This document shows positions 161 through 38,636 of a DNA stretch of 38,636 nucleotides, piece by piece (the stretch's first letter is position 1; every line of letters begins with the position of its first letter). The position numbers and the translations under genes were made by a program. Source of the DNA: an uncultured Synergistales bacterium (GTDB lineage: Bacteria > Synergistota > Synergistia > Synergistales > Aminobacteriaceae); contig CAJODC010000022.1 of the NCBI GenBank assembly GCA_905233215.1, positions 1 to 38,636 of the forward strand, read 5' to 3'. The notes under the pieces are model-generated. The model was not told the origin of the DNA, did not search any database, and saw only the letters and a list, made by a program, of their open reading frames with translations.

Positions 161-262
161 CGTGAACTACCCCCGCTTATAGAAGCGGGGGCTTCCTAAT
201 TCTACGAGGCTGCAACACAAATCTTCCGACTCATGTCGTCTTACGTCCTCTCCAAAGGCGTT
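161..262 (-). ncRNA. Predicted omega/reRNA-like 3' end of the tnpB element
   Basis: TnpB guide RNAs are known to derive from the 3' end of tnpB plus the right end of the element, with the guide taken from flanking DNA. Read on the minus strand, this segment has a possible 9-bp wobble-containing stem with a GGAA loop (215-236), followed by a 9-bp GC-rich stem (170-191) just before the element edge. Both stem positions recur in the solo copy in ogt (34464-34562), where the first stem has a different sequence. The RNA identity is inferred from position and structure only. Confidence 0.5.
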
Positions 263-1444
263 AATTCCCTGCGTCCCACAGGTATATTTTCTCGACAGCA
301 ATATCATATTTCGCGCCGCATGGATGTCTCGGTCTTCTTCATATCCGCACGAACACTTATATACTCGGTCTGCTAATGTTATATCCTTCTTTAGCTTTCC
401 GCAGCAGGGACAATATTTCGTTGTCGGTTCTCTCGATGACAGCACTGTTACTCGTTCATTATGTATCATTTTTGCTTTCACTAGTCCTAATACAGAATGC
501 TGCACTGTCCTGCCGAACAAGCCTTTATGCCAGCCGGAAATATTTTCATCCTGCATATATACTTGCTCATGCTCTAATAGCTCATGCACGATTTTATTCG
601 CCACATCTTTTTTACGGCTCGTTAATTTCTGATATGCTCTCTGCAATAACTTCCTCGCTTTGTACCGATTGTTTGAACCTTTTTTACGCCGTGCTATTAA
701 ACGCTGGCACTTCTTTATTCGTTCACTTTCTTCAATCAGCACTTTATATTTCATGCCGTCTGAGGTTGTTATTGTCGTTTTTATTCCCATGTCTATTCCG
801 ATTTCGGGCTTATATTTCTTCATCTCACCTCCCTTATTCTGATACGTTGTTATTGCCAGATAATAGCCATCCGGAAGATTCAAAAGTTTCGCATTTGCAA
901 ATTCTAAGTCCGGTATATTCCAGAACTGATTAGCTCCCCTAATTCGTATACGTTCCTTGAAACCCTGAAGCCCTATGTGCCATTGGTCATAAAACCTATA
1001 CGTTATTTTATGTTGTTTAAGATTTATCGACACATAATCAGACTTGTAACGCAGACTGCCTACTGTGTGATTATTTTTCTTCAATGTTGAAAGAGATTTA
1101 AGGCTACACTTTATCCCTTGAATAACAGACTGCCTCATTTGCGATGAGATATATTGCAATTCATGTGTTATCGGCTGCCTGTCTTTATCAAGTGCATTTA
1201 CTGTCTGTGTTGTTGTATCGTAGTCGTTAATGTCGTGTTCAATCATGAAAGTTAGTGCGTCGTTGTAGAGCCATTTAGCTTCGACAAAAAGCATTTTGAG
1301 ATGAGTTCTCTGAGCTTGACTAAGATGAGAGAAGTCGATTTTTACACGGTATACACGACAAATCTGACGCTTGCGTTTTTGCTTCGTCATTATGCTCTGT
1401 TCGCGGATTCTTTGGTTTTTCGCTAATCTCTCTTCTTCTGTCAT
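167..1444 (-). CDS. tnpB: TnpB, RNA-guided RuvC-type endonuclease of IS605 family
   Basis: TnpB is the IS-encoded nuclease that uses an RNA made from the element's 3' end to cut DNA. It is the ancestor of Cas12 and helps the element persist after excision. The RuvC-like residues are visible (numbered from an upstream ATG at 1483): Asp231 in GIDMGIK, Glu313 in MQDENI, and Asp384/386 in EEDRDIHAARN. A zinc ribbon sits between them (CPCC at 358-361, CSC at 377-379). The ATG at 1483 lies inside the left-end hairpin, so the ATG at 1444 is preferred; neither has a clear Shine-Dalgarno. The last ~40 residues, after the ARNM motif, read through the right-end hairpin and are probably dictated by RNA structure, not protein function. 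All catalytic residues are present, so the nuclease looks intact. Confidence 0.9.
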   Translation of the reverse strand: MTEEERLAKNQRIREQSIMTKQKRKRQICRVYRVKIDFSHLSQAQRTHLKMLFVEAKWLYNDALTFMIEHDINDYDTTTQTVNALDKDRQPITHELQYISSQMRQSVIQGIKCSLKSLSTLKKNNHTVGSLRYKSDYVSINLKQHKITYRFYDQWHIGLQGFKERIRIRGANQFWNIPDLEFANAKLLNLPDGYYLAITTYQNKGGEMKKYKPEIGIDMGIKTTITTSDGMKYKVLIEESERIKKCQRLIARRKKGSNNRYKARKLLQRAYQKLTSRKKDVANKIVHELLEHEQVYMQDENISGWHKGLFGRTVQHSVLGLVKAKMIHNERVTVLSSREPTTKYCPCCGKLKKDITLADRVYKCSCGYEEDRDIHAARNMILLSRKYTCGTQGINAFGEDVRRHESEDLCCSLVELGSPRFYKRG

Positions 1445-1476
1445 AAAATTATTATATCCTAAATAGCGCAATTCAT

Positions 1477-1498
1477 CTCCCACCTAAAGAGGTGGGAG
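1477..1498. repeat. Left-end subterminal hairpin of tnpB element
   Basis: CTCCCACCT at 1477-1485 and AGGTGGGAG at 1490-1498 form a perfect 9-bp stem with a 4-nt loop. It lies upstream of tnpB, where IS200/IS605 elements carry the hairpin recognised by the Y1 transposase. Confidence 0.7.
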
Positions 1499-1503
1499 CC
1501 TTC

Positions 1504-1531
1504 TTGCGCTGAGAATTTTTAGGATTATAAC
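1504..1531 (+). promoter_or_regulatory. Sigma70-like promoter ahead of the flagellar genes
   Basis: TTGCGC (1504-1509), a 16-nt spacer and TATAAC (1526-1531) resemble a -35/-10 pair. It lies just outside the IS left-end hairpin and 21 nt before a small ORF with a strong ribosome site. It could drive that ORF and flgM onward. The IS may have replaced whatever stood upstream. Confidence 0.4.
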
Positions 1532-29781: not shown

Positions 29782-30551
29782 TTCGTGCGCTCAATCTCGG
29801 CGAATGCGTTGTGTTCGTGAATGCTCTCTTGGCTCTCAACGTTTGCGCTGTACCACGTTATTCTGTCGTCAGAGTCAAGCCTTACAGCAAGTTCCCGGAT
29901 AACGTCCTCGACAAATCTAGGGTTCTCGTAGGAGTGTTCAGTGATGAATTTTTCGTCCTCACGTTTCAACAGAGTGTAGAGCGGTGAAGATGAAGAGTCC
30001 TCAATCATCGTTATCATTTCCTCAAACCACACAAGACCTTTGCACCTTATCTTCAACGTGACCAAAGCTCTCTGATTGTGCGCTCCGTACTGTGATATTT
30101 CCTTTGAACAAGGACAAAGGGTCTGAACGTTCAATGACAGGCCGATGATCATATCGAAATGTTTTCCCTCGCTGTAATGCGCTTGAAGCTCAATGTCGCA
30201 CTTGCTGAAGCTCTCTATTTTTGAGACTGGAGCTTTCTTTCGGAAGTAGTAAGGGAAGAAGAAACTCACGGAACTTTCAGAGGCGTTCAACTTTTCGCAC
30301 AGCCTCCTAGTGAAACCCTCAAGGTTATGAGGCGATACACGGCCTCGATATTCTTCGAGCGTCTCAATGAATCGGCTCATGTGAGTCCCTCGATATTCAC
30401 GGGGTAACATGACGCTCATTGAGATTCTCGCTACAGTGTTCTGTGTTCCGCCGTCATGACACAACGCTGTGATAGGGCATGAAACGTTCTTGACACCTAC
30501 ACGGTCGATCTGAATATTTCTTAGATCAAATTCTTTTTGTACGTCCTTCAT
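29778..30551 (-). CDS. folE2: GTP cyclohydrolase FolE2 (type IB)
   Basis: FolE2 converts GTP to dihydroneopterin triphosphate, the first step of folate (and queuosine precursor) synthesis, and can use metals other than zinc. Family marks are GVKNVSCPI, YRGTHMSRFIE, TLCPCSKEISQYGAHNQR (metal/active-site Cys and His) and HEHNAFAEIE near the end. The ATG at 30551 is preferred because GGAA stands 7 nt before it; another ATG lies two codons upstream. It is the first gene of the minus-strand operon; TATAAT lies upstream at about 30579-30584. Confidence 0.93.
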   Translation of the reverse strand: MKDVQKEFDLRNIQIDRVGVKNVSCPITALCHDGGTQNTVARISMSVMLPREYRGTHMSRFIETLEEYRGRVSPHNLEGFTRRLCEKLNASESSVSFFFPYYFRKKAPVSKIESFSKCDIELQAHYSEGKHFDMIIGLSLNVQTLCPCSKEISQYGAHNQRALVTLKIRCKGLVWFEEMITMIEDSSSSPLYTLLKREDEKFITEHSYENPRFVEDVIRELAVRLDSDDRITWYSANVESQESIHEHNAFAEIERTK

Positions 30552-34209: not shown

Positions 34210-34680
34210 TCAATGCTTATTATGGCTTTGTTCAATTTCCAGTAACTTTATTTTTCTATCAATTCCACCTGCGTAGCTTGTCAATTTTCCGTTTGAGGCT
34301 ATTACACGATGACAGGGAATTATTATTGAGATTGCGTTATGAGCAACAGCACCGCCGACAGCTCGTGCCGAAACTTTAGAAAAGATTTGTCCGTAGGTCA
34401 TAGTGTGTCCGTATGGAATTGTGAGCAGAATTTCCCACACGGACTTTCTAAAATTCGTTGTCTTCGTGAACTACCCCCGCTTATAGAAGCTGGGGCTTCC
34501 TAATTCAACGAGGTCAGCGTTGCGGCATTTCTGCCTCCGTCTTACGTCCTCTCCAAAGGCGTTTGCAAGATTATCCGCAAAATATTTTTGACCGTCAAAC
34601 CATAATCCCGTTAAACTTTTTCCATCGCTTGCCAAAGTTATTCCGCCGAGTGGTGAATCATAATGACACGTATATTCCAT
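34210..34680 (-). pseudogene. ogt: Methylated-DNA--protein-cysteine methyltransferase, broken by IS remnant
   Basis: The N-terminal piece (ATG at 34680, EYTCHYDSPLGGITLASDG, then LTGLWFDGQKYFADNLA) and the C-terminal piece (NFRKSVWEILLTIPYG, then ISIIIPCHRVIASNGKLTSYAGG, with the alkyl-acceptor Cys in PCHR) are parts of one Ogt-type enzyme that removes alkyl groups from O6-guanine. About 98 bp of a tnpB-element right end (34464-34562) lies between them. About 45 codons of the normal middle are absent, so the loss is not a clean insertion. The N-terminal piece runs into the IS frame and stops at 34471; the C-terminal piece has an internal ATG at 34440 but no ribosome site. AGGGAG and TATACT upstream mark the old expression signals. 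Confidence 0.88.
34464..34562 (-). mobile_element. Solo right-end fragment of the tnpB element inside ogt
   Basis: This segment matches the last ~100 bp of the element at 161-1510: the hairpin next to the edge (34474-34495, one mismatch), and the conserved runs CTTCCTAATTC and CGTCTTACGTCCTCTCCAAAG. The central ~25 bp differ in sequence, yet still form a hairpin (GGCA, GAAA loop, TGCC; plus-strand 34524-34535). No left end or nuclease-coding part remains. It could be the scar of a deletion or a non-autonomous RNA-encoding remnant. Confidence 0.8.
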
Positions 34681-37584: not shown

Positions 37585-38019
37585 ATGAGGAAGATATTAA
37601 CATTAACGTTTATATTTGTGATGATTGGGACTAGTTACGGAGCAGTGTCAGATGATGTGTACGTGCGCAAAGATGTATTTGAAGTGTACATGCGTAATAT
37701 CAGCGACACACAAGAGAGGATATTGCAAAAGCTGGATAGACTCGAAACTTCTGTGGCAGATTTATCGAATAGGGTATCAGAGTTGGCCGGGCGTGTAGAC
37801 GGAATAGACAAGAGAATGGACATATTGTCATCACGAATAGATGACCTTCGGAATGGAATATATTTGTGGCTTGTGGCAATAGGGCTTGTGGTCTCGTGGC
37901 CGAAAGTGCGAGAGATCTTCCGTAACATGGGCAGCTCATCACCGTCAATAACGCTGGAAGATGTGAAGCGTTTGATTGCCGAGAACAACGCTGAACTTCT
38001 GAAAACTCTGAAAGCATGA
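37585..38019 (+). CDS. Exported or membrane coiled-coil protein, first tandem copy
   Basis: The 144-aa protein is not assigned to a named family. It has an N-terminal signal peptide (MRKILTLTFIFVMIGTSYGA), a coiled coil (about residues 45-88, RLETSVADLSNRVSELAGR, then VDGIDKRMDILSSRIDDL), one membrane helix (about 92-108, IYLWLVAIGLVVSW) and a C-terminal amphipathic segment, ITLEDVKRLIAENNAELLK. A coiled coil outside and the tail inside the cell is the simplest topology. AAAGGA stands 9 nt before the ATG. The last third repeats almost exactly 545 bp downstream. It looks like Borrelia Bdr/DUF1640-type coiled-coil membrane proteins in design, but homology is not shown. Confidence 0.7.
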   Translation: MRKILTLTFIFVMIGTSYGAVSDDVYVRKDVFEVYMRNISDTQERILQKLDRLETSVADLSNRVSELAGRVDGIDKRMDILSSRIDDLRNGIYLWLVAIGLVVSWPKVREIFRNMGSSSPSITLEDVKRLIAENNAELLKTLKA

Positions 38020-38091
38020 AAAGTAGAGAAAGGAATGACTGATAATGCGTAAGATACTAGCAACATTAGCACTAGTGCTGTTGACGTGGAG
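37993..38091 (+). repeat. Exact 99-bp direct repeat of the tandem array, copy A
   Basis: The same 99 bases occur at 38538-38636, exactly 545 bp on. The repeat covers the last codons of one gene, the intergenic ribosome site and the signal-peptide codons of the next. It is exact as far as the window edge, so it may be longer. Confidence 0.9.
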
Positions 38092-38564
38092 AGGACGTAT
38101 TTGACGCTAAAATGGAAGCGTTCATGAGTGAGATGCGTAATGGATTTCAGATGCTGAACGCAAAGATAGACGCTCAATCACAGCGAACGGACGATAAATT
38201 TCAGAGCCTTGAAGCACGAATGGACGAGAAATTTCGAGGAGTCGATGAGAAATTTCAGAGCCTTGAAACGAGAATGAACGAGAGATTTCGAAGTGTAGAC
38301 GATAAATTTCAGAGCCTTGAGACGAGAATGAACGAGGGGTTTAGAGGTGTAGACGATAAAATTCAAAATCTTGACACACGTATAAGCGATTTGAGGAATG
38401 GAATATATTTGTGGCTTGTGGCAATAGGACTTGTGGCAACATGGCCGAAAGTGCGAGAAATCTTCCGTAGCATGAGCAACTCATCGCCATCAATAACGCT
38501 GGAAGATGTGAAGCGTCTGATTGCCGAGAACAATGCCGAACTTCTGAAAACTCTGAAAGCATGA
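38045..38564 (+). pseudogene. Second tandem coiled-coil gene copy, frameshifted
   Basis: The ATG at 38045 opens a signal peptide (MRKILATLALVLLTW) that hits TGA at 38102-38104 out of frame. In another frame, coding resumes with EDVFDAKMEAFM, similar to RKDVFEVYM in the first copy, and runs to 38564. Compared with the first copy, about eight to ten codons after the signal peptide are missing, and the frame is lost. An ATG at 38112 could give a 150-aa protein lacking the signal peptide. The body has three and a half copies of an 18-aa unit, then the same membrane helix (GIYLWLVAIGLVATW) and C-terminal motif as copy 1. AAAGGA precedes the first ATG. Confidence 0.7.
38190..38390 (+). repeat. 54-bp tandem repeats encoding an 18-aa coiled-coil unit
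   Basis: Units start at 38190, 38244, 38298 and 38352 (last one partial). The unit reads approximately DDKFQSLETRMNERFRSV and keeps hydrophobic positions suited to a coiled coil. The first three units are nearly identical in DNA, which suggests recent slippage or unequal exchange. The first copy of the gene lacks these repeats. Confidence 0.85.
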
Positions 38565-38589
38565 AAAGTAGAGAAAGGAATGACTGATA

Positions 38590-38636
38590 ATGCGTAAGAT
38601 ACTAGCAACATTAGCACTAGTGCTGTTGACGTGGAG
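38590..38636 (+). CDS. Third tandem coiled-coil gene copy, cut by window edge
   Basis: The ATG at 38590 with AAAGGA upstream repeats the signal-peptide codons of the second copy without change (MRKILATLALVLLTW) before the window ends. Whether it stays in frame after this point cannot be seen. Confidence 0.55.
   Translation, partial: MRKILATLALVLLTW

Follow-up and report, generated by a model that had tools for sequence, protein, structure and literature searches.

Right end of an IS605-type element within ogt, its probable assembly-made left edge, and tnpB-less relatives that carry structured modules beside a candidate TnpB guide RNA

The window, by which we mean the whole 38,636-nucleotide stretch of DNA that was analysed, contains two right ends (REs) of IS605-type elements, one belonging to a copy with a tnpB gene and a left end (LE), and the other lying between the two parts of a split ogt gene. 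The features that concern us are as follows, in window coordinates.

162–261, minus strand: RE of the tnpB-bearing copy, of the other inner-hairpin subfamily, with a RAGATH-18-like core at 193–258
167–1483, minus strand: tnpB of the full copy, with OrfB_IS605 and Cas12f1-like_TNB domains, a possible source of TnpB in trans
1464–1509, minus strand: LE hairpin of the full copy, 89% identical to the LE on contig C50 and resembling the LE of tnpB-less elements
34210–34465, minus strand: 3′ part of ogt (TTNFRKSVWEIL...PCHRV...), whose first bases would be the guide; the end coordinate comes from codon counting
34466–34562, minus strand: IS605-type RE made up of the scaffold core and the terminal hairpin (3′ end ...GTAGTTCAC), an architecture seen in 17 copies in the genome and 101 in the genus
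34466–34564, minus strand: word of 99 bases that recurs exactly at the end of contig C7, the left end of the word being the apparent 'solo' left edge (contig overlaps are 99 bases)
34497–34559, minus strand: RAGATH-18-like (RF03064) guide-RNA core at full model length (cmscan, 23.2 bits, E 0.021 in 181 bases)
34524–34535, minus strand: inner hairpin GGCA-GAAA-UGCC, from the fold and from stem covariation inside its subfamily
34564–34565, no strand: apparent left junction, ogt ...CTTGC / AAACGCC..., a probable contig-join artefact judging by the 99-base overlap, the scan for upstream hairpins and the LE side on C50
34565–34680, minus strand: 5′ part of ogt (MEYTCHYDSPLGG...KYFADNLA), from comparison with relatives

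Several properties of the RE inside ogt are clear from its relatives. First, it is homologous over about 97 bp of the minus strand to the end of the window's tnpB element, with 82% identity to positions 160–261 (E 1e-21), which rejects chance similarity, and it is 100% identical over 97 bp to the copy at the end of contig C7, after which the two diverge; the proposal in the initial annotation that ogt carries a real right end of a tnpB element is therefore upheld. Secondly, the order along the minus strand of 34466–34562 is ACGCCTTTGGAGAGGACGTAAGAC-GGAGGCAGAAATGCCGCAACGCTGACCTCG-TTGAATTAGGAAGC-hairpin-GTAGTTCAC. The element had been taken to end at 34464, but because the match to the C7 copy breaks off at query base 97 we place the end at 34466; bases 34464–34465 (GA) belong to ogt, and their agreement with the flank of the other copy is chance. 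Thirdly, a search across the 80 contigs (1.74 Mb) of the genome to which the window belongs gave 17 copies of the RE. The inner hairpins described earlier are present, with GGCA-GAAA-UGCC at 34524–34535 and a long stem with a GGAA loop in the full copy, but RNAfold gives the latter 11 pairs and not 9. They were also thought to differ copy by copy, and in fact define two RE subfamilies, both of which recur across the genus.

RAGATH-18 is the top Rfam match for both window copies at a relaxed threshold, with alignment over the full model in each case. At the gathering threshold (44.9) the Rfam scan gave no RAGATH-18 match, the scores being 23.2 bits for the ogt copy and 20.7 bits (E 0.096) for the full copy, and the core is thus termed RAGATH-18-like only. 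RNAalifold applied to 87 distinct RE copies recovers the same long-range helices as RAGATH-18. Alignment of these copies and inspection for covariation, a check suggested by the initial annotation, was positive, with 60 double-changed cells compared to 15.6 ± 6.5 in shuffled alignments; 98.3% of the tested cells pair, while slid structures reach only 25–68%. Most of this covariation comes from the terminal hairpin, which could be under selection as DNA for the transposase. The central helix also covaries (one pair is GC in 79 copies and AU in 6), as does the 4-bp stem with the GAAA loop in the subfamily of the ogt copy, whose outer pair 18–29 is AU in 8, GC in 4 and GU in 3 of 16 sequences. 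Folding energies are unremarkable relative to shuffles for the 99-nt ogt RNA (z −1.6), and likewise for a unit of the alpha type described below and a further miniature element; the full copy alone is exceptional (z −4.4), and the case for an RNA therefore rests on covariation. The family as a whole lies at the 3′ end of tnpB and has a conserved, covarying structure, as is characteristic of TnpB guide RNAs, the ogt copy being without an adjacent tnpB.

The ogt gene is itself incomplete. By comparison with relatives, about 37 codons (~110 bp) are absent between its 5′ and 3′ parts, and a search for the missing segment elsewhere in the genome did not find it. The sequence across the apparent junction of ogt and RE is ...AATCTTGC/AAACGCC..., and in the assembly neither a nuclease gene nor a left end adjoins the RE, as had been noted previously. 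An exact 99-base overlap with another sequence is found at eight of the contig ends inspected (both ends of C16, together with ends of C25, C18, C7, C22, C35 and C44), and we therefore take 99 to be the overlap length of the assembler; because the C7 end is the same as window positions 34466–34564, the 'solo' left edge coincides to the base with the end of an overlap word. In one further copy (L004, on contig C23), a single N, which marks a scaffold gap, separates 99-base words that are common to the end of C18 on the LE side and to the start of C44 on the RE side. A further overlap signature is seen at the end of the window's contig, where the last 99 bases (38538–38636) repeat 37993–38091 exactly.

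The DNA upstream of the other REs bears on the same question. A pattern search finds a conserved upstream hairpin in 85 of the 91 copies with at least 60 bp of upstream sequence. The six exceptions are two plain variants (L008 and L212), a degenerate copy (L232), a divergent relative (L263), the ogt copy and the copy with the N gap; the hairpin is clearly absent only from the last three, and the ogt and N-gap copies are the only ones among the 91 whose RE begins at the 99-base word without it. Contig C50 carries an alpha-type LE side that ends in a 99-base word, no second copy of which was found among the sequences compared. The bin holds this one alpha LE side (C50), with its unmatched terminal word, and one RE side (ogt) lacking an LE side, which fits the loss of a left half at ogt; C50 could end for another reason. 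A search of GTDB contigs, from which this genome and its closest neighbours may be missing, returned no second assembly of this species. Going only by some of the named relatives in that search, the genus appears to fall within Synergistaceae. We conclude that the 'solo' look of the ogt RE, with its defined left edge, is most likely an assembly join. The description of this site as only the last ~98 bp of an element is not one that can be assigned to the genome, because the left boundary coincides with the end of a 99-base overlap, next to which ogt lacks about 37 codons; taken alone, the ogt observation is ordinary or artefactual.

Counting against a join are the lack of an N at the junction and the loss of ~110 bp of ogt, which simple repeat collapse, where the left contig should run into an LE, does not explain. 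The same facts favour a genuine deletion scar, in which a full or miniature element would have lost its LE, its body and ~110 bp of adjacent ogt, with the terminal ~99 bp left as a dead relic: the missing codons lie exactly beside the junction, as an adjacent deletion would leave them, and internal deletions are known in IS605-type elements (PMC3119063). The breakpoint of such a deletion, however, must match the 99-base overlap of the assembly to the base, and the sole other RE to start at the 99-base word, among the 91 copies with upstream sequence, is the one with the N gap. We regard a true deletion, with a right breakpoint that fell by chance 99 bases from the element end, as unlikely, but leave it a minority share because the junction has no N and the loss of ogt codons is unexplained.

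A single match to Y1_Tnp is found in the genome (G000, C65:54–416, 136.9 bits), and we infer that this Y1 transposase moves these elements; contig C65 also holds a divergent RE at about 1574–1610. The RuvC-II motif in the TnpB clade to which window 167–1483 belongs is YMQDEN(L/I)xGW in almost all copies, with a QDKNL variant in the TnpB of L136. Aligned with a solved TnpB, this clade has Gln at the position of the catalytic Glu or, if the alignment is shifted by two, the next Glu. On the former alignment a dead TnpB was considered, and is not claimed because the motif YMQDEN(L/I) is common to nearly every copy in the clade.

The 101 RE copies of the genus differ greatly in what lies upstream: a tnpB of at least 250 aa is present in 33 and fragments of one in 15, contig ends truncate 18, and of the rest 23 have an LE and no tnpB and 12 have neither. 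The tnpB-less class is defined by an LE within 420 bp of the RE and by less than 40 aa of tnpB similarity, and its 23 loci include the N-gap copy (L004) and one that is probably a decayed tnpB copy (L227); modules of the alpha or beta type persist in several of the 12 copies with neither feature. In the genus, about 20 loci consist of an LE, the guide-RNA core and an RE, often with a TATAAT box and with no tnpB, and in a minimal kind the LE is followed by the RE with little between. These tnpB-less loci have IS605-type ends with neither a transposase gene nor tnpB between them, an arrangement that is not seen in the ogt copy as assembled. Subterminal hairpins are present at the RE in the 87 aligned copies and at the LE in the full and tnpB-less copies, the ogt copy having only that of the RE in the assembly. 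The motif TTTA(A/C/T)C precedes the LE in most copies, whether tnpB-bearing or tnpB-less, the exact element ends and an insertion without target duplication being putative. Many of the tnpB-less elements have TATAAT shortly after the LE, as tnpB copies do, which suggests a −10-like promoter just inside the LE; exact TATAAT occurs in 14 of 34 short 'LE' hits with a mean shuffle probability of 0.5, a value owing to several false LEs and an AT-rich region, and the promoter is for this reason suggested only. A sigma-70 consensus scan of one alpha unit gave no forward-strand promoter.

Had all copies kept some of tnpB with random breakpoints, the initial annotation would have counted as refuted; instead, many have no recognisable tnpB and carry defined internal modules. 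Nuclease-free guide-RNA units, as envisaged in the initial annotation, do exist in the genus, but as elements that run from LE to RE and not as solo right ends; judged by their sequences, these elements look like TnpB guide RNAs acting in trans. The more specific proposal, that the ~98-bp RE in ogt is itself transcribed and works as a guide-RNA-only unit with TnpB supplied in trans and ogt sequence as its guide, draws on the RAGATH-18-like core, on a TnpB encoded in the same genome and on the presence of tnpB-less units in the genus. Against it, three features retained by the other tnpB-less copies are missing from the ogt RE, namely the LE, the −10-like box and the upstream hairpin, of which the box and 5′ hairpin occur in essentially all other copies; transcription of the RE would need the ogt promoter, and its left edge is suspect as a likely contig join at the 99-base overlap. 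The evidence thus fails to support such a unit at ogt, and we consider it very improbable.

The internal regions of the tnpB-less elements include two recurrent modules, represented by the following loci.

L127:1609–1700 and relatives (alignment A4): alpha, a module of ~90 nt on the 5′ side of the RE in tnpB-less elements
L234:1472–1700 and 13 relatives (alignment A2): beta, a non-coding module of ~230 nt between a TATAAT-like box and the guide-RNA core

Alpha is composed of GTTGAATAACTGGAAT...ATTCCGACAAC, a CCTAC..GTAGG hairpin, and then a CCTGGAC..GTCCTAA hairpin directly before the RE. The structures of both modules were drawn partly by eye from the same alignments, so that slid controls favour them by construction, and the shuffles ignore relatedness; with this reservation, the 21 pairs of alpha (13 sequences) are formed in 97.4% of cells and have 16 double changes compared to 6.3 ± 2.1 in shuffles, and the 35 pairs of beta (14 sequences), in six helices of which one is pseudoknotted, are 97.0% paired, with double changes at 9 pairs compared to 2.1 ± 1.0 and no shuffle as high. 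In alpha, the hairpin adjoining the RE has double changes at all four of its four pairs, and is precisely what would precede the 99-base word in ogt. Among 101 genomes searched, alpha was found in 15, each of them a member of this genus, and by DNA in 14 of 43 genus genomes; beta is in 11 of the 43, and outside the genus a search of 188 genomes of the phylum gave only 24–27-bp matches, which are of chance size. Translation of three beta examples revealed stops in nearly every frame and no long frame in common, and beta was rejected as a coding region. An Rfam scan of alpha, beta and a third module, gamma, gave no match beyond the RAGATH-18 core at the RE; a single sub-threshold match to the L20 leader is taken as chance. 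Gamma marks a third, smaller kind of tnpB-less element (L016, L226, L249, L250, L235, L098 and L092) with the internal sequences GTGCAGACTAC... and ...AACGAAAACCAAGTG..., and possibly comprises two kinds. One alpha element (L297, G003:C233, about 30168–30274) holds tandem TACAGCGCACTACGTG-type units in the inner-hairpin region of its RE.

IS605 transposases bind single-stranded DNA at the terminal hairpin, and the hairpin covariation could on that account reflect recognition by the Y1 transposase only, and not an RNA, the more so as the terminal hairpin (columns 85–126 of alignment A1) gives most of the covariation in that alignment. Covariation is nevertheless also seen in central helix 12–15/68–71, the inner hairpin and the helices of alpha and beta, all at a distance from the terminal hairpins, and the core is similar to a guide-RNA family that has been established by experiment (PMC11061315); we therefore think an exclusively DNA-level explanation improbable.

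Our preferred reading, to which we assign a probability of roughly 70%, is that ogt harbours a normal element whose left part was lost together with some of ogt in a contig join, and that the complete tnpB-less elements are trans-acting guide units. On this reading, ogt took up an IS200/IS605-type element, probably behind a TTTANC-like target, and the 3′ part of a TnpB guide-RNA scaffold of the RAGATH-18-like kind would be encoded by the RE of that element, such that the ogt sequence just downstream would be the guide. The original element was probably a tnpB-less alpha element of ~260–280 bp, a tnpB-bearing copy being less likely. The inner-hairpin class of the ogt copy and its 'AA/ACGCC' junction are common to alpha elements and support this origin, but membership is not certain because class-A inner hairpins also occur in tnpB-bearing copies, such as two decayed ones in the window's genome (L012 and L013). 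The assembler would then have fused the left part of ogt straight to a contig that starts with the 99-base RE word, dropping the left part of the element and ~110 bp of ogt.

As for the complete tnpB-less elements, those with both LE and RE would be moved in trans by the Y1 transposase. Transcription from the −10-like box inside the LE, of the type seen in tnpB copies, would yield a composite RNA with a 5′ module, the guide scaffold and a flanking guide, and this could be loaded by TnpB from the full-length copies; guided by flanking DNA, the complex would cut empty sites, and the element would be retained. More tentatively, and at somewhat less than even odds, we propose that the genus has undergone a radiation of nuclease-free IS605-type elements in which tnpB is replaced by alpha (~90 nt) or beta (~230 nt, with a pseudoknot) fused to the TnpB guide scaffold, giving a two-domain trans guide RNA whose 5′ domain would act beyond TnpB binding, by stabilising, regulating, catalysing or serving as a TnpB decoy. 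Stabilising or regulating the guide RNA is our first guess for this domain, with a TnpB decoy as the alternative.

The ogt site illustrates how, in metagenome assemblies, spurious 'solo' ends of mobile elements can arise from k-mer overlaps at repeats, and looking for a word of the overlap length at the element boundary is a simple test for them. Through nuclease-free elements that retain a guide RNA and a promoter-like box, non-autonomous transposons would be open to maintenance by TnpB in trans; alpha and beta are candidates for new RNA families associated with RNA-guided nucleases.

Comparison with known systems reveals several likenesses. In IS200/IS605 elements such as ISDra2, the scaffold of the TnpB omega-RNA (reRNA) shares sequence with the 3′ end of tnpB and stops at the element RE, flanking DNA serving as the guide. 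The family described here shares the position of the scaffold and the predicted flanking guide, but its tnpB-less copies have no nuclease gene and have the extra 5′ domains alpha and beta. Guide RNAs without an adjacent nuclease gene are also familiar as stand-alone omega-RNAs reported for IscB and as guide-bearing palindrome-associated transposable elements (PATEs), from which the elements here differ in nuclease family or host. The guide RNAs of IS607 TnpB have RAGATH-18 as their scaffold (PMC11061315). That study reports the RNA only with IS607 TnpB, which 64% of its occurrences adjoin (10,258 of 16,029), the other 36% lying away from one. The core here agrees with RAGATH-18 in the conserved CCU..GGAG.G ... 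C.CG.UGAA..AGGAA sequence, in both long-range helices and in its position at the tnpB 3′ end, where the flank would be the guide, but it scores at about half the gathering threshold and belongs to elements whose hairpin ends are of IS605 type and whose putative target is TTTA(A/C/T)C-like. PATEs are short, transposase-free and thought to be mobile in trans, and are described by their IS605-type near-terminal palindromes (PMC3119063; a PATE-like case is given in PMC7290912), some having arisen by core deletion (PMC3119063, PMC7290912). The tnpB-less elements resemble them in these palindromes and in having no transposase gene, and differ in keeping a guide-RNA core to which many add a defined structured RNA module. 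Transposase-free palindromic elements and stand-alone guide RNAs are thus already known, and the new part is the alpha and beta domains.
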